Assembly (NCBI GenBank): GCA_023511455.1
Contig: JAIMBJ010000019.1
Coordinates: 1-64,000, forward strand
Direction of reading: 5' to 3'
DNA length: 64,000 nucleotides
Origin: Bacillota bacterium
GTDB lineage: Bacteria; Armatimonadota; HRBIN16
Made by a program: the position numbers and the translations under genes. Of the stretch, positions 17,776 to 26,031 are shown piece by piece. A model generated the notes under the pieces. The model was not told where the DNA came from. It did not search any database and worked only from the letters and a program-made list of their open reading frames with translations. How positions within the stretch are numbered: the first letter of the stretch is position 1; each line of letters opens with the position of its first letter.

Positions 17776-17863
17776 GAAACGCAGTCAGGTGCCTCCCAGC
17801 CATTCACCGGCCCCTGCTCGCTCAACACCGCATCCCGCGAGATAAACCGCCCGACTTCTAGGG
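17776..17863 (-). pseudogene. Rhs core remnant (tip junction fragment 5)
   Basis: On the minus strand this reads LEVGRFISRDAVLSEQGPVNGWEAP and then a stop a few codons later. VGRFISRDAVLSE is identical to the core end of the full Rhs gene at 22715-25606, but the segment PYLYCEHE is deleted and the tail is short. It has no start codon or ribosome binding site, so it is a relic. It marks the downstream edge of the Rhs locus. Confidence 0.75.
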
Positions 17864-17878
17864 CGTGGATTGGTCAGC

Positions 17879-18370
17879 TCAGGGTACGTAGCGAGTCAGC
17901 CCGGGAATGCGGTCAAAGTGGGCATCCCTGCTTGCTATATTCAGACATCCAAGTCGAACCATTACCGCATAATGCAAGGCATCACGCGGGCGTAATTGGT
18001 AACGCTCCATGCTGTCGGTCATCACCGACAGGTCATCTGCAACAACCTCAACCACGTAGAGGTTGGGTAAGCGAGTGAGTTCTTCCAACGCTGCGCGTAC
18101 GGGTGGGACAATCTCCCGCAGCACGGTGACCTCCTGCTCGCGCAACACGTCAAGCGGGGAACCACCATACCGTTCCCGAACCAGTGCCAGTATCAGGCGA
18201 TAGGCAAGTTCATCAAACGTAAGCACTGAAGTGTACGCCTGAATAGCCCCTGCCTCTACGCGCTCGAAGAAAAGCCTGACCTGCTCGTCGAACCCGCGCA
18301 GAAGGGCATAAGGCAACATCGTATCCAGATAGACACTATCTCCGGCAAAATCGCGAAGAAGCAGGTTCAC
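17879..18370 (-). CDS. PIN-domain toxin (VapC-like)
   Basis: A 163-residue PIN-domain protein, probably a ribonuclease toxin. PIN features are the N-terminal VYLDTMLPYALL (first acidic residue), the SVLTFDELAYRL helix (second acid), and LRPRDALHYAVMVRLGCLNIASRDAHFDRIPGL, which carries the last acidic residues. Its GTG overlaps the stop of the upstream gene (GTGA), the normal arrangement of VapBC pairs. It is sited among Rhs fragments, a typical place for toxin-antitoxin modules. The RNA target cannot be predicted. Confidence 0.85.
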   Translation of the reverse strand: MNLLLRDFAGDSVYLDTMLPYALLRGFDEQVRLFFERVEAGAIQAYTSVLTFDELAYRLILALVRERYGGSPLDVLREQEVTVLREIVPPVRAALEELTRLPNLYVVEVVADDLSVMTDSMERYQLRPRDALHYAVMVRLGCLNIASRDAHFDRIPGLTRYVP

Positions 18371-18570
18371 AGAGCGAACCTCTTCCAGTCAGCATCGTCA
18401 TCATACTCTTGCCACGAACCCGTGCCCAGCTTACCGAAAAGATCAGCCACCCGGCTCGCACGCAAGGGTGGTTCGGTGACCAATTGGGTACGCAGTTTCT
18501 GCAAGTTGCAGATAAGCGTATCGATTTGACGAAGCAGTTGTTCTCGTTCGTCTGGAGAGGTCCTTTGCAT
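18367..18570 (-). CDS. VapB-like antitoxin
   Basis: A 67-residue partner of the PIN toxin. The N-terminal half is a helical, charged segment (PDEREQLLRQIDTLICNLQKL), and the C-terminal half (ADLFGKLGTGSWQEYDDDADWKRFAL) has the acidic, aromatic tail that antitoxins thread into the PIN active site. The ATG at 18570 gives 67 residues; an earlier in-frame ATG at 18603 sits almost exactly at the predicted transcription start of the TATAAT at 18607-18612 and would be leaderless. The two genes overlap by four bases. Confidence 0.72.
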   Translation of the reverse strand: MQRTSPDEREQLLRQIDTLICNLQKLRTQLVTEPPLRASRVADLFGKLGTGSWQEYDDDADWKRFAL

Positions 18571-18606
18571 GTTTTCCGACCCCCAGCTCACAGGCATCAT
18601 CACTTC

Positions 18607-18612
18607 ATTATA
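18607..18612 (-). promoter_or_regulatory. -10 element of the toxin-antitoxin promoter
   Basis: A perfect TATAAT on the minus strand lies 4 bases before an ATG triplet at 18603-18595. The -35 region is weak (TTAGAC at 18 bases). If it is used, the transcript starts at or within a few bases of that ATG. Confidence 0.5.
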
Positions 18613-18632
18613 CCATGAGACGTTCCTTTGGT

Positions 18633-18818
18633 CTAAACCGCATCCCGGCTGATAAACCGCCCCACCTGCGGGTCGTAATAGCGTGCCCCGACGTGCAACA
18701 ACCCCGCATCACCGTCATCGCGGTAGCCCCATGCCCCCGCAAAGCGATAGGGATTGGCATTGCTGCCCCACTGCGCCACCGTGTTGCCGAAGGCTTCGGT
18801 TGTCAACCTGCTGGTTAT
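18633..18818 (-). pseudogene. Rhs core fragment ending in a stop (fragment 4)
   Basis: An open minus-strand segment of about 60 codons that is nearly identical to residues of the full Rhs gene from LTTEAFGN through YRFAGAWGYRDDGDAGL and YYDPQVGRFISRDAV, followed at once by TAG. The full gene differs at a few positions, for example GSNANP here against GSSANP there. It lacks the SEHPYLYCEHEPVN junction and any tip. There is no start codon. It is a duplicated or deleted copy of the last YD-repeat region. Confidence 0.85.
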
Positions 18819-18851
18819 GTTCGTATAATTGGTTAACCGTCTCTAAATGAC

Positions 18852-19259
18852 CTACAGTATGAGACCCGCAATACACAAGGCGAGGCCAATCGCAACCATC
18901 ACTCCTCCGCCTATGCGAGCGTACTGGTAATTCAAACTATTCTGTAGTGCTCGCGCCCAGAGGCGATCAAGCTTCGTACGAAGCAGCCACCCTACGACAA
19001 ACAACGCGGCGCTAAATGCGATGTAGGCAAGGGTAGACAGACGCCCTCTACTTAATGTCCACAGGATACCACCTGCGGCCGCTGACAACCACACAAGAGA
19101 CAAACAGGACATCAGACGCTCACGGGTGGGCAAATCAGACAGCCACTCCAAGGAACGGTACTGAGGCGTCCCACGATACTCTGGTTCTTTGCTCAAAAGG
19201 GCGTCTACTCCCCCTACTATCAGTACGACGCCAGCGACCATGCACTCAACGTTCGGCAT
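18852..19259 (-). CDS. Small membrane protein following Rhs tip 4
   Basis: A 135-residue protein with three to four predicted membrane segments (VECMVAGVVLIVGGVDALL; LSLVWLSAAAGGILWTL; LAYIAFSAALFVVGWLL; GGGVMVAIGLALCIAGLIL). No family recognised. It begins 11 bases after the displaced Rhs tip at 19271-19738, with AGGGTGATG upstream of the ATG. By position it is where an immunity gene would be expected in an Rhs system, but this is inference. Confidence 0.65.
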   Translation of the reverse strand: MPNVECMVAGVVLIVGGVDALLSKEPEYRGTPQYRSLEWLSDLPTRERLMSCLSLVWLSAAAGGILWTLSRGRLSTLAYIAFSAALFVVGWLLRTKLDRLWARALQNSLNYQYARIGGGVMVAIGLALCIAGLIL

Positions 19260-19270
19260 GTTGCATCACC

Positions 19271-19738
19271 CTACATCACCCAACCAAAGACGACGCTTAC
19301 GCTAGGGCTGCCTATACCGACCTCCCTAAACGCACCGCCACCAGGGCTCCAGCCGCGTTGGAAACCAGGGGCGGGCAACCGGGGTAACCAAAATCGCTTG
19401 GGGATATAGCCCCCATATCCAATGAACGGTCCTGGTGCAATGTAGTCCCACGAGCTGTTGAACCCCCAGCCTAATCCTGGTGGCAAACCGAACCCAAAGA
19501 ACAGGTAAGGATGGCAACCCAGTCTACCTCCTGGGTGGGTATTGCCGTATTGGAAGCCTCCACCAAAAGTGAAGGGAACCGGTATTGTATGAACAAGTAC
19601 TATCGTTGTGAACGAGACGTTGATGTCAACATAAACCCTCCCACTTGGATCCACATAATTAACCGGCTCATGCTCGCAATAGAGATACGGATGCTCGGTC
19701 AGCACCGCATCCCACGAGAGGAATCGCCATAAACGCAG
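19271..19738 (-). CDS. Displaced Rhs tip 4, glycine/proline-rich
   Basis: The open segment begins with FLSWDAVLTEHPYLYCEHEPVNYVDPSG, the junction of the Rhs core, and continues with a tail unlike the full gene's tail: VYVDINVSFTTIVLVHTIPV, then a Gly/Pro/Phe-rich region (FFGFGLPPGLGWGF, IGYGGYIPKRFWLPRLP). It has no convincing start codon; the frame stays open upstream into the preceding gene. This is the structure of an orphan Rhs C-terminal tip that could replace the active tip by recombination through the shared junction. No enzymatic motif is visible in the tail. Confidence 0.6.
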   Translation of the reverse strand: MRLWRFLSWDAVLTEHPYLYCEHEPVNYVDPSGRVYVDINVSFTTIVLVHTIPVPFTFGGGFQYGNTHPGGRLGCHPYLFFGFGLPPGLGWGFNSSWDYIAPGPFIGYGGYIPKRFWLPRLPAPGFQRGWSPGGGAFREVGIGSPSVSVVFGWVM

Positions 19739-19767
19739 GGTCAGACCCCCGTGTCTGCCCCCACTAT

Positions 19768-20967
19768 CTAAGTCAGATTTCCGACAGCAGTCATCAAGCG
19801 GTTGACAAACGGCACATAGTAGTACGCCGCAAACAACAGTGAAGGCACCCATAGCCGCCTCCACGTTTCATAAGTAGTGACGCAAGCAAGCACTATTATC
19901 GCCGATGACAACATGCTGGAGATGCTCATCGCTCCGCCCGCCGTCAGAAAGGTGAGAACAAGCAGAACAGTCCATCCCACAGCCACCGCGACACCGGGTA
20001 GTTCCATGTGGTGCAAACGTTCGCGTGCCTGAGTGTATACTGTGCCGATAAACCACCATGTAAAGATGGCTGCGGCGATGGGGATGCCTGCAGTCAGAAA
20101 AATCACCGACTGTACGGTAATGTGGCGCAGCACACGCGGAACATCCGTATGGACAACTACCATGTGAAGCCAGTAAGCTTGGTCCAGCAACATTCCTGCG
20201 TAAAGTGTAAGAGCAAGTGCTAACAACCAGCGAGGTGGTTGCCACATCGGGGTCGTGTCTCCCTGCACATACCTGCGCCGATAGAATGTTGCTATGGCTG
20301 CCAGTCCAAGCCAAAAGCCGGCTTCGGTAAGCAGTTGGTAGCTGTTCGTGTTTCCCTCTGCACTGGGGAGCGGCACTCCGAAAGTCAACCAGGCGAGCAG
20401 ATAAGCCGCGACGACGTTCCACAGGTATAGCAATAGCATCGCGATTGCTTGTGGGAGCACCCAGACACCCACCCAGCGTCTAGCGAGCGCGGCAAAGCCA
20501 ACCAGCACTAAGAAAGGCAGGAACACCTTGGCGAGCCATTCCACTATCTCCTTCTTTGGAAGTAGCTGCCAGGCTGCCAGATAGTCCCCTTTTCTCCATT
20601 GTACCTCTGCCAGTTTCTTGCGGACCTCACCGCGCCAAGCAGACGAGGAGGTTTGAGCCAGCATCTGACGAAAAACATCTTCCGCTTCGTCCAGTTGCTT
20701 CAGGTCTAATAGACAAGTGGCTTTGAACCACGATAGGCTCATGTCACCCGGATACTTCTGCAACGCCTGCTCGGTCTGTTTGAGAAGTTCCCGCACATGA
20801 GAAGGCTTGACACGTCCCAGTCGGTCGTTTCGCTCTTGAGACATCAAGCTCAATCGGTGCACCTCAGCGAAAGACGGAGGGACACCAGCTGCGACTTCCG
20901 TCTGGCAAGCGCCTTGCCTGTCGCACAACAGCCAGGTGATTACGAAAAATAGAAGAAACCTGCACAT
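19768..20967 (-). CDS. Secreted-then-membrane protein with TPR-like N-terminus, 399 residues
   Basis: Begins with a signal peptide (MCRFLLFFVITWLLCDRQGA), then about 130 residues of helical repeats of TPR type (LLKQTEQALQKYPGDMSLSWFKATCLLDL; LDEAEDVFRQML; EVQWRKGDYLAAWQLL), then about seven membrane segments from residue 150 on. The ATG at 20967 has GGAGGA six bases upstream. No family recognised. It follows displaced tip 3 by about 70 bases and partly overlaps the open frame leading into tip 4, so it takes the partner position in the tip array. Function unknown. Confidence 0.7.
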   Translation of the reverse strand: MCRFLLFFVITWLLCDRQGACQTEVAAGVPPSFAEVHRLSLMSQERNDRLGRVKPSHVRELLKQTEQALQKYPGDMSLSWFKATCLLDLKQLDEAEDVFRQMLAQTSSSAWRGEVRKKLAEVQWRKGDYLAAWQLLPKKEIVEWLAKVFLPFLVLVGFAALARRWVGVWVLPQAIAMLLLYLWNVVAAYLLAWLTFGVPLPSAEGNTNSYQLLTEAGFWLGLAAIATFYRRRYVQGDTTPMWQPPRWLLALALTLYAGMLLDQAYWLHMVVVHTDVPRVLRHITVQSVIFLTAGIPIAAAIFTWWFIGTVYTQARERLHHMELPGVAVAVGWTVLLVLTFLTAGGAMSISSMLSSAIIVLACVTTYETWRRLWVPSLLFAAYYYVPFVNRLMTAVGNLT

Positions 20968-21035
20968 TTTCCATCCTCCGTCTCGTTTTGATGTAAGTGC
21001 AGGGTAGGTAGACCACCCTGCACGACGCAACTACC

Positions 21036-21413
21036 TCACACGACAGGTAAGAGGGCGGTATCCGGCACCGGTACCGCACTGCTCGGTTGGGATGGTTGGA
21101 ATCCAGGGTTGGGCGCAGCTCCTGGATTTGTCGGGAAAGGATCCATGTTATCCGGAATGCCGTCGTTGTCGTCATCATAATCCACAATATTTGGATGGCG
21201 ATCCCCGTCGCTATCGCGTCCTGGGTTTGTCGTCCCCGTTGCTGGGGGGGGACCTTGGGTAACACGCCCGCATCCAGGCAATATAAACACCAGCGCCGCA
21301 GCCGCTAACAACACCAGTATCCCAGCCCGCCCACTCGGATCCACGTAATTGACCGGGTCGTTCTCGCAATACAGATACGGATGCTCGCTCAGCACCGCAT
21401 CCCGCGAGAGGAA
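21036..21413 (-). CDS. Displaced Rhs tip 3 with lipobox-like segment and Ca-binding repeats
   Basis: Starts with the Rhs junction FLSRDAVLSEHPYLYCENDPVNYVDPSGR, then ILVLLAAAALVFILPGC, which looks like a lipoprotein signal ending in a lipobox-like LPGC, a Pro/Thr/Gly linker, and DSDGDRHPNIVDYDDDNDGIPDNMDPFPTNP, which matches thrombospondin type 3-like calcium repeats. It ends in a Pro/Ser-rich tail. The only start codon in the core part is the GTG at 21395. The tail is unrelated to the tips at 19271, 21778 and in the full gene. It may be translated only after recombination into the full gene. Confidence 0.62.
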   Translation of the reverse strand, partial: FLSRDAVLSEHPYLYCENDPVNYVDPSGRAGILVLLAAAALVFILPGCGRVTQGPPPATGTTNPGRDSDGDRHPNIVDYDDDNDGIPDNMDPFPTNPGAAPNPGFQPSQPSSAVPVPDTALLPVV

Positions 21414-21470
21414 AGGGTCATACTCTTATCAGCGTTTTGACACAGGAAGCCCACTTTGGTCCCGTGTCTT

Positions 21471-21731
21471 TCATATCCCCTTCGTACGCCTCCGCCACCA
21501 CAACACTGTAGCCAGCAGAGCAAACGGAAAGACGGTGCGCTCCAAGAAGAACTTCAGTTCACCAGATAGCCACCCCAGCGTGACCGGCTGCCCTTCTGCT
21601 GTAGCCAATAGAGCGGAAGCGCCCGCAGCACACAACAGCAGAATGGCAAAAAAGGCAGCGAAGACCACTATGGTCTCACAGATTAGCCGCAGCAGGATAC
21701 CGGGCTCTGATGGTGCACCAAGTAGCCTCAT
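21471..21731 (-). CDS. Small membrane protein following Rhs tip 2
   Basis: An 86-residue protein with two clear membrane segments (ICETIVVFAAFFAILLLCAAGASALL and FPFALLATVLWW) and a basic C-terminus (RRRTKGI). It begins 46 bases after tip 2 ends, with GGGAGG upstream of the ATG at 21731; the open frame extends to an ATG at 21758 without a ribosome binding site. No family recognised. It is in the position of a tip-specific partner or immunity protein. Confidence 0.6.
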   Translation of the reverse strand: MRLLGAPSEPGILLRLICETIVVFAAFFAILLLCAAGASALLATAEGQPVTLGWLSGELKFFLERTVFPFALLATVLWWRRRTKGI

Positions 21732-21777
21732 GGAATTTGCGCCTCCCGTCTGGAACATCCACTGGTGCCTGAGTCAG

Positions 21778-22044
21778 TCATTTGCACCACACAGGCGGAT
21801 GATCGGCATACCAGCGGACCATGTCTCTATACTTTTGCTTGGCCCACTCCCACACGCGTACTTCATGCCCTTCCTCGTAACCGCCGCCGAAGAACCCTGC
21901 GATGGCGCCGGGGACCATCCACCGTAGCCCACCAGGGCTGCCGCCTATAGCTCCCATTAGTGCGCCTACGATAGCTTTACGCAGGCTAAACATCCCACTC
22001 GGATCCACATTATTAACCGGCTCATGCTCGCAATACAGATGCAG
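21778..22044 (-). CDS. Displaced Rhs tip 2
   Basis: The open segment starts with LHLYCEHEPVNNVDPSG, a shortened Rhs junction in which the RDAVLSEHPY part has been lost, and continues with MFSLRKAIVGALMGAIGGSP, a Gly-rich hydrophobic stretch (MVPGAIAGFFGGGY), and a charged end (WEWAKQKYRDMVRWYADHPPVWCK). A GTG at 22008 or the ATG in GMFSL could start it, but neither has a good ribosome binding site. It follows the 95-residue membrane gene directly. I see no known toxin motif. Confidence 0.55.
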   Translation of the reverse strand: MHLYCEHEPVNNVDPSGMFSLRKAIVGALMGAIGGSPGGLRWMVPGAIAGFFGGGYEEGHEVRVWEWAKQKYRDMVRWYADHPPVWCK

Positions 22045-22051
22045 TTGTGGG

Positions 22052-22339
22052 TCACCGTCGGTTGCGACCGTACTTTAGTACGCCCCGCAAAATGACGATA
22101 GTTCCAACTAATCCAACGAATAGTCCGACCACTTCTGCCTCCTTCAGGGCGAATTTCCTTCCTGAGTATAAAAGACTCAAACCTGTAGCCCAAAGCAGAG
22201 TGGGAAGAAAAAGGACCGGTGAAGCCGATGCCCGGTTTGACGCGCTGACGTGAGCCAGCCGCCACCAAATAAGTTGGACGACAGCTGCAGCCCATACAAC
22301 GCATGTGACAACTAGCCAAATGCCGTCTGACATTTCCAC
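22052..22339 (-). CDS. Small membrane protein following the full Rhs gene
   Basis: A 95-residue protein with three predicted membrane segments (IWLVVTCVVWAAAVVQLIWW; PVLFLPTLLWATGLSLLY; VGLFVGLVGTIVILRGVL) and a basic end (KYGRNRR). The GTG at 22339 has GGAGGT five bases upstream; the ATG at 22333 is an alternative. It is the first gene downstream of the full Rhs gene, 375 bases after its stop, and runs straight into displaced tip 2. No family recognised; a partner or immunity role for the resident Rhs tip is an inference from position. Confidence 0.62.
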   Translation of the reverse strand: MEMSDGIWLVVTCVVWAAAVVQLIWWRLAHVSASNRASASPVLFLPTLLWATGLSLLYSGRKFALKEAEVVGLFVGLVGTIVILRGVLKYGRNRR

Positions 22340-22714
22340 ACGTCACCTCCTCGTCGCCTGCATTCCTCAACGTGGTCGCGCTGAGAAACCACTACTATGA
22401 ATTCTCAAGATGCGGCTTTTGCCGCGTGTTTTACACGTACCCATAGACGTGTCCCACAGGCGAAGGCCTGTCCTTTCGGGCGTGGGCACGCAGTTGATAT
22501 GAAATGAAACTGCCTCCGACGACAACACTCAAGACATACATAGGGTACCCTCACTTTGAGTCTTCTACTTTTGTTGCACTCCGTGCCATGGTTGGAGATT
22601 GCTTCGGTCGCGGCCAACACTAATGACACGAAGCATGTCTCATTTCGCTCTGCGCACACGAAGCAATCCCCAAGTTTCATTAACAGGCGTGATTCTGTAC
22701 GCACTTGACCGAGC
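22340..22714. other. Gap between full Rhs gene and its downstream membrane gene
   Basis: A 375-base stretch. It contains an open minus-strand frame rich in Cys and Arg (roughly 22405-22680) without a ribosome binding site, and short GC-rich palindromic pieces near 22425-22480. I do not accept a gene here. It may be the decayed end of an earlier tip or partner gene. Confidence 0.4.
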
Positions 22715-25606
22715 CTACATAGATAGAGTAGGCGTCGGAGCATACGGATTGAGTGGGTCGTGCCACGGCGGTAGCAGCCTGCCATCATCTTCCGAAGAAC
22801 GTGGAGGCTGCGGGACAGGTGGAATGCTTGGTGGCGGAATGTATAAATGTTCCTCGTCTATAGGGAACAGCGCATCGGCAATAAGTTCGCCGAGGTGCAG
22901 TCCTAAACCAATACCCCCCACCAATGCACCCACAAAGGCTATCACACTTCCGGCTGGTGGGTTGACTATTGCTACTAGGCCACCGACGCTTGCGATAAGT
23001 CCCCCTGCAACCTCCAACCATTCATATGTCTTCCTTCCACTCGGATCAACCCTATTCACCGGCTCATGCTCGCAATACAGATACGGATGCTCAGAAAGCA
23101 CCGCGTCCCGCGAGATGAACCGCCCTACCTGCGGGTCGTAGTAGCGCGCACCGACGTGCAACAACCCCGCATCGCCGTCGTCGCGGTAGCCCCACGCCCC
23201 CGCAAAGCGGTAGGGGTTAGCACTGCTGCCCCACTGCGCCACCGCGTTGCCGAAGGCTTCGGTTGTCAACGTGCTGGTCAAAGCCTGAAGGCTGTTCACC
23301 GTCGCCCGCGTGGTGCCTAACCCGTCTGGCAGCACCACCTCCCCGTTGCGGGCAACCAGCGCGTTGCCGTAACTGTAGACGGCAGTGACCGCGCTGCCCT
23401 GACGTTCCACTATTATCTTATCACCGTCATGCACCAGTTGACAAGGGGTGCCGTTCACCGTGCGCGAAACCCGACGTCCCAGCGCATCGTAGCTGAAGGT
23501 TACCACACTGCCTTTGCCGCTGATGCCCACCAGCTGACCGTCGTAGTCCCAGCTCAGCGTATAGCTCACCCCGTTCAGCACACGGGACACCTGCTCCCCG
23601 TTGGCGTTGTAGGTGTAACTGTTGTTGAAACCGCCACTCGTGGAGAGCAACTGGTCGTCGGCATTGTAACTGAAGGTGGTGGTCACTCCGTTCACCGTCT
23701 GGCTCAGACGGTTGCCCTCTGCGTCCAGGGTGTAACTGATGGAATAGGGTGCCGTGCCGGTGCGAACCTCGCCCACCAGACGGTGCGCACCGTCGTAGGT
23801 GTACGTAACGGTGGAATCATCCGCCTCCACCACCTGCGTGCGCAACCCGTCCGCGTTGTAACTGTAATTGTAGGAGGCTATCACGTTGTTGTCGCTGCGC
23901 CGATGCACGATGCTCGTCAACCGGTTCGCCACATCGTAACTCTTGCTGGTGGTGACCCCGTTCGGAGCGGTGATGCTCACCTCGTTGCCGTTGGCGTCGT
24001 AGGTATAACTGGTGGTGCCGGTCGGCTCCGTTACCGATGCCAGCTCGTTGCGCGCGGTGTAACTGTAGGTCACCGTGCGACCGCTCAGGTCACTCATGCT
24101 GCTGAGCAGTCCCCGCTTGCCGGACGCATCGTAACTGTAACTGACCTGAACCACCCCGTTCCACGACTCGCTGGTGAGGCGGTTGGTAGAGTCATAGGTG
24201 CGTGCCCAGGTGCCCGTGCTATCCGTCCAGCCCACCAGATTATCGTTGGCATCGTAACTGAAGGTCTTGACGCTGTTATCGGGGTAGGTTATCTGCACCA
24301 GGCGCATCCAGTTGTCCCGGCTGTAGGTGGTGGTCCGCCCCATGGCGTCGGTGCGGGCGGTCTGCAGTCCCAGCAGGTTGTAACTGTACTGGGTCACTTT
24401 GCCCAGCGGCGTGGTGACGCTGCTGAGGTTGCCGTGCGTGTCATAGCCATATTGCGTGGTGTGTCCGCCCGCATCCGTCTTGCTGGTAACCAGTCCGTAA
24501 CTGTTCACAGTGTAACCGACGGTGCTGATGACCGCACCGTTGCTGTCCTTGTGTTGTGTCTGAATAAGGTTCCAGCCCGTAGCATCATAGGTGTTCACCG
24601 TCTGATGCCCCAGAGGGTCGGTAACAGTCAGCACGCGGTTGCGGGCGTTGTAGGTGAAGCTGCTGGTATTGCCCAGCGGGTCGGTCTGACTGAGCACATT
24701 ACCCCGACTGTCGTAGGTGAAACTCCACACGTTACCCCGCCTGTCGGTCAGGGCAGTGAGGTTGTTGCTGGCATCCCAGCTGTAACTCTGGATGTATCCC
24801 AGCGCATCTTGCTCCGAGAGCAGTCGTCCGTTGCCATCGTAGGTGTGCACCGTGGTGTGCCCGTTGGGGTCGGTGACACCGGTCTGGTTGGTGCCATAGC
24901 TGAAGGTGATGGTGTTGCCCGCAGGGTCGTTCTGCGAAACCAGGCGGTTGGAGACATCATAACTGTATTGCCACACGTTACCCCGCCGGTCGGTCAAACT
25001 GGTGATGTTGTGGTTGGCGTTGTAGCCGAACTGCAGACGATAGGTGTTGCCGTTGAGGGTGGGAAAGTTCACCTGCGTCAAACGCCCGTAGGCGTCATAG
25101 GTGAACGTCCACTGCCGGTTGAGCGGGTCGGTGACCGCCGTCATCCTGCCCGACAGGTTGTAGGAGAAGTTCAGCTGGCGGTTGGTGGGGTCGCTCAGGC
25201 GGGTGAGGCGGTTGCTGCTATTGTAGGTGAGGGTGATGGTATTGCCGTTAGGGTCGGTGATGCTGGTGCAGAACCATCCCGTGCCGTTGGGATTAGTGAA
25301 ACGGTAGCGTATCTGCTCTTTGGTGGTGAGGTCATAACTGCTGATGGGGCTGCCGTTGGCAACAAGGGTGTCGTAGATGCCTGCGGGAGGCAGGTAACTG
25401 CCATTGGGCTGACGGATGAAGGTGTAGCACTTGCCATCGCCCCAGTGCACGGTAACGTTTCCCGTCGGGCTGTCCACCAGCAGGTAGAGCAGATACGTGT
25501 GTGACCACTTCTGCCCCAACTCGCGGTTGATGGTGGCTTTACTGTTGTGGTAGAGAGTGAACTGCACGGGCATTCCGCCTCTGGCTTGCCAGCCGACAAG
25601 GGGCAC
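22715..25606 (-). CDS. Rhs/YD-repeat protein with resident tip (5' end disrupted)
   Basis: 963 codons open. From residue 20 on the chain is a long series of YD repeats (for example LTYNSSNRLTRLSDPTNRQ, FTYDAYGRLTQVNFP, YSYDVSNRLVSQNDPAGN), forming the beta-shell that wraps the C-terminus in Rhs proteins. The core ends at YYDPQVGRFISRDAVLSEHP and YLYCEHEPVNRVDPSG, after which comes the resident tip of about 105 residues: hydrophobic and Gly-rich (VAGGLIASVGGLVAIVNPPA, FVGALVGGIGLGLHLGELIADALF), then an acidic Pro-rich tail. The first codon at 25606 is a GTG in mid-protein: the frame stays open upstream to a TGA at 25784-25786, and the true N-terminus lies beyond a frameshift. The protein as encoded may not be made or exported. 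Confidence 0.88.
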   Translation of the reverse strand: MPLVGWQARGGMPVQFTLYHNSKATINRELGQKWSHTYLLYLLVDSPTGNVTVHWGDGKCYTFIRQPNGSYLPPAGIYDTLVANGSPISSYDLTTKEQIRYRFTNPNGTGWFCTSITDPNGNTITLTYNSSNRLTRLSDPTNRQLNFSYNLSGRMTAVTDPLNRQWTFTYDAYGRLTQVNFPTLNGNTYRLQFGYNANHNITSLTDRRGNVWQYSYDVSNRLVSQNDPAGNTITFSYGTNQTGVTDPNGHTTVHTYDGNGRLLSEQDALGYIQSYSWDASNNLTALTDRRGNVWSFTYDSRGNVLSQTDPLGNTSSFTYNARNRVLTVTDPLGHQTVNTYDATGWNLIQTQHKDSNGAVISTVGYTVNSYGLVTSKTDAGGHTTQYGYDTHGNLSSVTTPLGKVTQYSYNLLGLQTARTDAMGRTTTYSRDNWMRLVQITYPDNSVKTFSYDANDNLVGWTDSTGTWARTYDSTNRLTSESWNGVVQVSYSYDASGKRGLLSSMSDLSGRTVTYSYTARNELASVTEPTGTTSYTYDANGNEVSITAPNGVTTSKSYDVANRLTSIVHRRSDNNVIASYNYSYNADGLRTQVVEADDSTVTYTYDGAHRLVGEVRTGTAPYSISYTLDAEGNRLSQTVNGVTTTFSYNADDQLLSTSGGFNNSYTYNANGEQVSRVLNGVSYTLSWDYDGQLVGISGKGSVVTFSYDALGRRVSRTVNGTPCQLVHDGDKIIVERQGSAVTAVYSYGNALVARNGEVVLPDGLGTTRATVNSLQALTSTLTTEAFGNAVAQWGSSANPYRFAGAWGYRDDGDAGLLHVGARYYDPQVGRFISRDAVLSEHPYLYCEHEPVNRVDPSGRKTYEWLEVAGGLIASVGGLVAIVNPPAGSVIAFVGALVGGIGLGLHLGELIADALFPIDEEHLYIPPPSIPPVPQPPRSSEDDGRLLPPWHDPLNPYAPTPTLSM

Positions 25607-25965
25607 AGTGGTCAGTTTGTTGCCGTGCAGGGTGTTGGTGTCGGCGAGCTGTGCCTGCCATCGGTAGGGGTTGCCGGTGTTGGTTTCATTGGGCAGGGGT
25701 TCGTCATCGCCGATGCCGATACCCGAGTTGGTTGTGCTGCCGCCAGATGGTGGCCGTAGGGCAGCAACGAGGATGGTCTGGTTTCACAGGTGGTGGAGCG
25801 TGGTTGCACAGGCAGTGGTCGTATTCGCGAGGATAATCCCCAGCGAGGCAGCTGCTGCGAGGACGTTACTAAGCGTGGTTACCCCCTCGCATTTGTAAGC
25901 AGGAATACAACAGAAAGAGCCAACGCGAGGGGTTTGGTCACAAAGCGTTTGCGAACACGGTTCAT
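25607..25965 (-). pseudogene. Disrupted 5' end of the Rhs gene (signal peptide plus linker)
   Basis: From an ATG at 25965, preceded by AAGGGGGA at good spacing, the minus strand encodes MNRVRKRFVTKPLALALSVV followed by FLLTNARG and a TAA, a clear signal peptide. Shifting frame near the run of five G at 25881-25885 continues as VTTLSNVLAAAASLGIILAN and TTTACATTLHHL, then a TGA at 25784-25786, after which the same frame runs as NQTILVAALRPPSGGSTTNS into the YD-repeat gene. One frameshift and one stop therefore separate the export signal from the body. Confidence 0.72.
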
Positions 25966-26001
25966 GATGGTTCCCCCTTCTTCATTTGGTTCTTTGGAGA
26001 C

Positions 26002-26031
26002 AGTATATCACAGGGTCAGCGTGTTTGGCAA
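26002..26031 (-). promoter_or_regulatory. Sigma70-type promoter of the Rhs gene
   Basis: TTGCCA at 26031-26026 and TATACT at 26007-26002 on the minus strand, 18 bases apart, each 5 of 6 to consensus. The start point would be about 30 bases before the ATG at 25965. Bases 26032-26270, between this promoter and that of ricT, hold no gene I can support. Confidence 0.65.

Follow-up and report, generated by a model that had tools for sequence, protein, structure and literature searches.

The core-end copies and the genes between them

The window analysed here, 64,000 nucleotides long, comes from an Armatimonadota genome of 3.85 Mb in 73 contigs, where it is contig C19. It contains a long YD-repeat gene of the Rhs type, read on the minus strand. 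In the order of that strand, a leader is followed by the gene body, its variable end (tip 0) and a partner ORF, and then by three modules, each made of a core fragment, a tip and an ORF (tips 1, 2 and 3). At the distal end of the array are a core fragment ending in TAG, a small ORF with a PIN gene, and a relic. The features are these:

25879..25965, minus strand: Sec-type leader MNRVRKRFVTKPLALALSVVFLLTNARG, ending in a stop, ATG at 25965; out of frame with the YD body
25882..25888, minus strand: poly-G tract where the leader adjoins the body, shortened and interrupted (GAGGGGG); 6-18 G at the homologous site in relatives
25784..25786, minus strand: in-frame TGA stop in the body frame, missing from the 93%-identical RSWS16 homologue L043 in the alignment
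22718..25606, minus strand: main YD-repeat/Rhs gene body, core plus tip 0, 963 aa from GTG; Pfam RHS_repeat 5e-103, TIGR03696
22718..23032, minus strand: tip 0, 105 aa, Pro-rich at its end and with two hydrophobic segments; a homologue sits on a different core fragment, G003:C3
22052..22339, minus strand: candidate partner of tip 0, 95 aa, 2 TM; by position, 375 bp downstream
21994..22054, minus strand: core fragment of tip 1, by DNA self-comparison
21781..21993, minus strand: tip 1, 71 aa, Gly-rich, C-terminal YADHPPVW; homologues on other core fragments, G000:C4 and G006:C36
21471..21758, minus strand: candidate partner of tip 1, 95 aa, 1 TM; by position, 19 bp downstream
21328..21413, minus strand: core fragment of tip 2, by DNA self-comparison
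21039..21326, minus strand: tip 2, 96 aa, a hydrophobic segment ending LPGC, a Pro-rich linker and a DSDGD Ca-motif-like stretch; recurrent family
19768..21030, minus strand: partner of tip 2, 420 aa, TPR and about 6-8 TM; homologous partners at 7 of 8 places
19637..19731, minus strand: core fragment of tip 3, by DNA self-comparison
19274..19636, minus strand: tip 3, Gly-rich, 121 aa, all-beta by a weak prediction; homologues in G002, G003, G005 and G006
18852..19259, minus strand: partner of tip 3, 135 aa, 4 TM; homologue directly downstream of a homologous tip, G002:C46
18633..18818, minus strand: tipless core fragment, stop TAG; by self-comparison, shared with RSWS16
18367..18603, minus strand: small ORF that overlaps the PIN gene and is probably its antitoxin; the pair also occurs in RSWS16
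17879..18370, minus strand: PIN-domain toxin-like gene, Pfam PIN 7e-11
17815..17855, minus strand: short core relic, by DNA self-comparison

The main gene was identified as Rhs/YD by Pfam RHS_repeat and by Rhs chains in the PDB (E 1e-47). The Rhs-associated core, recognised by TIGR03696 (Rhs_assc_core) with 60.3 bits against a cut-off of 32.5, ends at the junction LYCEHEPVN-VDPSG. When the DNA was compared with itself, four fragments matched the main gene: the core-only fragment (18637-18815 with 23100-23278) at 90% over 179 nt, E 4e-65; that of tip 3 (19637-19731 with 23033-23127) at 83%, E 3e-22; that of tip 2 (21331-21413 with 23037-23119) at 83%, E 2e-18; and that of tip 1 (21995-22040 with 23037-23082) at 91%, E 7e-12. 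The relic (17815-17842) matched the tip 2 fragment at 96% over 28 nt, E 7e-6. These core-end matches are far above the chance level. The initial annotation had described at least five partial copies of the core end behind one long YD-repeat gene on the same strand, three of them fused to three different tips, one ending in a stop and one a short relic at the end of the array, and these five lie where it had placed them.

Overlooked at that stage was the reading frame that each tip has behind it (22052-22339, 21471-21758, 19768-21030 and 18852-19259). From each of these four partner ORFs the next core fragment is only 0-46 bp away in window coordinates, so that every cassette of tip and partner is enclosed by two core copies. 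Also overlooked was the antitoxin/PIN-nuclease-like pair (18367-18603 and 17879-18370) that stands behind the last core fragment instead of a tip. This pair, spanning 17879-18603, takes the place that a partner would have after the tipless fragment, and in RSWS16 the PIN gene is cut. Within tip 2 there is an 8-base C/G run at 21244 that is possibly prone to slippage.

Linked partners and exchange of tips

In the genomes of the genus, core-end copies number in the dozens according to a model of the junction, and the tails on them are about 25-200 aa long. The distance from the stop of a tip to the start of its partner was less than 80 bp in 30 of 38 modules, with a tail of the distribution up to 375 bp. 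Tip 0 is the 375-bp case, and its pairing with the ORF at 22052-22339 is therefore doubtful. With tip homology set at E <= 1e-10, 12 of 16 homologous tip pairs had homologous partners too, compared with a mean of 0.5 and a maximum of 4 in 2000 shufflings of the partners; one of the 12 (L032/L121) is syntenic and hence not independent.

A search of 251 genomes gave eight long relatives of the tip 2 partner, seven of which lie directly behind or beside a tip of the same family, and this linkage extends to a different core in a family of the phylum that is only distantly related. A 54% identical relative of the tip 3 partner (tblastn, 133 aa) is found right behind a homologous, broken tip in G002; the alignment of the partner with this homologue on contig C46 scored 367 against 32 +/- 6 for shuffled sequences. 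For the partners of tips 0 and 1, a search turned up no recognisable relatives. Within the window, linkage is shown for tips 2 and 3, and tips 0 and 1 are paired with their ORFs by position only. In G003, a relative of the partner found there with the tip 0 family (L106:11421-11702, contig C3) stands behind a leader with no main gene, in the manner of an orphan immunity gene.

The tips themselves recur on other cores. The tip 3 family is present in G002, G003, G005 and G006, with broken copies in G002 and G006; the tip 2 family in G001, G003 and G005 as well as in the distant family f43 of the phylum; tip 1 has homologues at G000:C4 and G006:C36, and tip 0 has one in G003. One case is a 0.9-kb cassette of the tip 3 family, tip plus partner, which is 98% identical between G003 and G005, whereas the cores that precede it are 65% identical. 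The shift in identity falls exactly at the VDPSGR codons, and identity drops again about 930 bp past the start of the tip, near the next core fragment. At the level of sequence this comparison gives direct evidence that cassettes flanked by core copies have been exchanged. Comparing junctions for tip exchange had been proposed in the initial annotation; the comparison shows that a tip-3-family cassette has switched cores, and the tips that follow the DPxG junction are both variable and exchanged between cores.

A second case, DISPLACEMENT, concerns a full-length gene in the sister species RSWS16 (L043, which is G007:C293). This gene is 93% identical to the window gene and carries the tip DDWFDDLTNLQVV (DDWFDDL). 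Its flanks match contig C4 of the window genome (G000) on both sides, rather than the window. C4 is syntenic with L043 and has a different, degraded core and further tips, the DDWFDELTNLQVV tip being its most distal fragment. The arrangement fits the C-terminal displacement model (PMC2935791). The outcome of exchange between cores, loci and species can thus be read from the alignments, and homologous recombination would be its presumable route. The view of the initial annotation, a full gene with stored alternative ends in the style of Rhs polymorphic toxins, is borne out to this extent.

At the locus of the window, RSWS16 has the same neighbours, and in place of an array they enclose a single core fragment of 237 bp that likewise ends in TAG; the antitoxin/PIN pair is present and cut at its 3' end, in a locus that spans two contigs with overlapping ends. 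In another species, G003, the site is empty, with the neighbours about 165 bp apart and Rhs sequence absent. The neighbours are together in RSWS16 and G003 only, and gain and loss can thus be put in order only in part. The initial annotation had held that a fixed arrangement among relatives, with no exchange of tips and decay of all fragments, would reduce the array to a graveyard of duplications; the array is missing from this locus in both relatives, so that its arrangement is not fixed.

Several further rearrangements were seen. A second Rhs array in the window genome (L033, contig C14, 758-10381) has a different core and longer tips, and two of its tips are each present in two identical copies, so that part of the array looks duplicated. 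In G006 (L128) and in RSWS16 (L120/L044) the leader or the region upstream of it is joined to core residues about 680-691, a recurrent internal deletion of the Rhs body. Two contigs of the window genome, C39 (L142) and C33 (L031), end inside near-identical Rhs sequence; C39 has a leader with 10 G and C33 a core end with its tip, and together they may be one more full gene split in two.

The leader and its poly-G tract

The YD frame of the main gene is open only from 25783, and the leader is in another frame, which terminates just past the G-rich stretch GCGAGGGGGTAA. Because the leader is out of frame and the TGA stands at 25784-25786, the body ORF from GTG 25606 (963 aa) has no export signal. 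The initial annotation had listed 22715-25606 as a full gene. The long YD-repeat gene is there, but its 5' end is broken, with the leader out of frame and an extra stop in frame, and from these reading frames we take it to be, most likely, silent or broken in the window genome. With this leader and stop, the relic and the tipless fragment, the locus is partly decayed.

The same Sec-type leader occurs at 10 places in six of the ten genus genomes. The sheath protein VipB (PF05943) of type VI secretion systems (T6SS) is absent from all ten, with a positive control in E. coli, and delivery by T6SS was rejected on this ground. Of the autocleavage motif DPxG-x18-DPxG, the second DPSG is present by inspection, and the first is degenerate, reading RDAVLSEHP.

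In the assemblies, in which G counts are those of consensus sequences, the border between a type 1 leader and the body has 6, 7, 9, 10 or 18 G at homologous sites, the window having the degenerate GAGGGGG. In a second leader family (type 2) there are 7-13 G. Leader and body were out of frame at all nine type 1 sites (window 25882-25888, L129, L124, L131, L125, L130, L126, L132 and L127) and at all seven scorable type 2 sites (L037, L133, L134, L139, L212, L214 and L229), with both wrong phases represented. The chance of this would be (2/3)^16 = 0.0015 for independent sites, and these sites are related. One other Rhs leader, with 12 G (G003:C21), is in frame. Upstream of another class of Rhs there is a gene for a secreted TPR protein with the tract in its signal peptide, and here both frame states occur: in frame with 9 G at five sites (L211, L215, L227, L230 and L236) and out of frame with 10 G at L188 and L195. 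Runs of at least 9 G are rare, with about ten sites in the 3.85-Mb window genome and about 82 across ten genomes, and 18 of 66 examined sites of this kind coincide with the 5' end of an Rhs gene or operon or precede it by a short distance.

These frame states suggest phase variation, which is the simplest reading of the poly-G tracts at Rhs leaders. Relatives show both wrong phases, which one fixed shift cannot repair, and this makes a programmed ribosomal frameshift at the leader the less likely explanation. Transcriptional slippage at the tract may take place. We regard it as an evenly balanced question whether the Rhs contact toxins throughout the genus are contingency genes, switched on and off by poly-G slippage and mostly off, with the displaced cassettes supplying alternative ends. 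If they are, diversification would have two layers, on or off by the G-tract and the tip by recombination, in bacteria with no T6SS. A literature search, with subscription journals mostly outside it, found no description of phase-variable poly-G in Rhs genes. The poly-G tracts are the newest element of this locus study, and they open a clear and cheap test of phase variability in contact toxins.

Other exported proteins, too, have runs of at least 9 G where they start (L181, L182, L184 and further sites), such as those beginning MKRLALLLK-GG. This type is in frame with 9 G on contig C6; its 10-G copies lie at contig ends and are unscorable. The single-contig genome G029, from a more remote member of the phylum, contains an Rhs gene (L061/L136) that is out of frame, with a run of 8 C separating an ATG leader from a Tat-like signal.

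Function of the tips and comparison with known systems

No known toxin family was found in the tips by Pfam, NCBIfam, PADLOC and PDB sequence searches, and a nuclease or other known toxin domain was dropped as a candidate, in agreement with the earlier remark that the tails are not nuclease-like; nothing beyond the Rhs core was matched. An assignment of some relatives' tips to polymorphic toxin types 34 and 37 was also dropped, as Pfam did not support it. Strong hydrophobic segments are present in two of the four window tips, 0 and 2, and membrane segments are predicted in all four adjacent partner ORFs. Other tip families on the same cores have soluble partners. The AlphaFold model of tip 3 is all-beta (pLDDT 58), with nothing found by Foldseek at E <= 0.001; that of the tip 2 partner (pLDDT 71) has TPR and long helices, with no significant structural match. 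Both models are weak. Hydrophobic tips and TM partners would fit membrane-acting toxins. The logic of the cassettes, together with these segments, makes toxicity the most likely role of the tips, for several of them at or within membranes, and immunity that of the partners.

The locus is likely, in our view, to represent an array of displaced tips belonging to an Rhs/YD-repeat polymorphic protein, that is, a main gene with orphan cassettes for putative tip toxins and their putative immunity proteins. Each cassette would consist of the end of the core, a variable tip and its cognate partner gene, with the next core fragment directly behind. Homologous recombination through the core copies could swap a tip with its partner onto a full-length core or, alternatively, push the old tip downstream. 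Export would most likely follow the Sec route, with the N-terminal leader as signal, given that no T6SS sheath gene turned up in the genus. As the main gene is at present silent or broken, the array in the window would be a reserve or a remnant and no active weapon.

The tips could instead be anchoring, adhesion or display ends of an exported YD protein, with membrane partners that place, process or anchor them and confer no immunity. This is unlikely, although several features of the tips lend themselves to it: they are short, hydrophobic, Gly/Pro-rich or Ca-motif-like, and have no recognised enzyme domains, the hydrophobic stretch of tip 2 ends in the lipobox-like LPGC, and a large TPR and multi-TM protein such as the tip 2 partner is odd for an immunity protein. 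Cognate cassettes with fast turnover and exchange are, on the other hand, the signature of toxin-immunity polymorphism, and soluble partners for other tips of the same cores are ill-suited to one shared anchoring machinery. It is also unlikely that the fragments are inert products of duplication and decay with no function as a store, since tips and partners remain open, cassettes travel as a unit between cores and species and the arrangement varies among relatives, although decay as seen in the 5' end of the main gene, the relic at 17815-17855, the tipless fragment and the broken tip 3 copies may make this partly true of the present state of the locus.

On the preferred reading, as a displaced-tip array of putative toxins, such arrays are extended to a poorly studied, mostly uncultured phylum and to a genus with no T6SS. 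About a dozen families of tip and partner, many of membrane type, have no recognised toxin domain and are therefore candidates for new toxin-immunity pairs. A literature search for Rhs in Armatimonadetes gave nothing related, and a comparison of Chthonomonas strains mentions neither Rhs nor homopolymers.

WapA-type toxins of Firmicutes are exported by the Sec route and combine YD repeats with a Sec leader in frame and a wall-binding part. In their YD repeats and Sec-type leader they resemble the window gene, whose leader is out of frame. Polymorphic toxin systems as a class have a constant delivery part, a variable C-terminal part, an adjacent immunity-type gene and standalone cassettes (PMC3482391). 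The window shares this organisation, but none of the toxin domains listed there was recognised in its tips; in the available portion of that survey there is no mention of Armatimonad-. Tse5 is a pore-forming Rhs toxin delivered by T6SS, with pore activity established by experiment (PMC10684867). Like the present proteins it has an Rhs shell, with a membrane-active C-terminal end where hydrophobic segments alone are seen here, and the window tips have no sequence match to it.

The closest likeness is to the Rhs arrays of Enterobacteriaceae, described in PMC3967940 and PMC2935791, in which a main gene is followed by core-end fragments with no start signals and with other tips, the tips have linked partner genes, and tips are found on full genes in other strains. 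The present arrays differ in belonging to Armatimonadota with no T6SS, in their Sec-type leader, in their short tips with no known toxin domain and in partners that are often multi-TM. The core kept by the window fragments is also shorter, about 45-180 nt compared with the 522 bp shared at 95% by the rhs orphan of Salmonella LT2 (PMC3967940). By the features tested, the window array belongs with the main-plus-orphan Rhs arrays of Enterobacteria, inside the wider class of polymorphic toxin systems, with putative toxicity of the tips and putative neutralisation by their partners.
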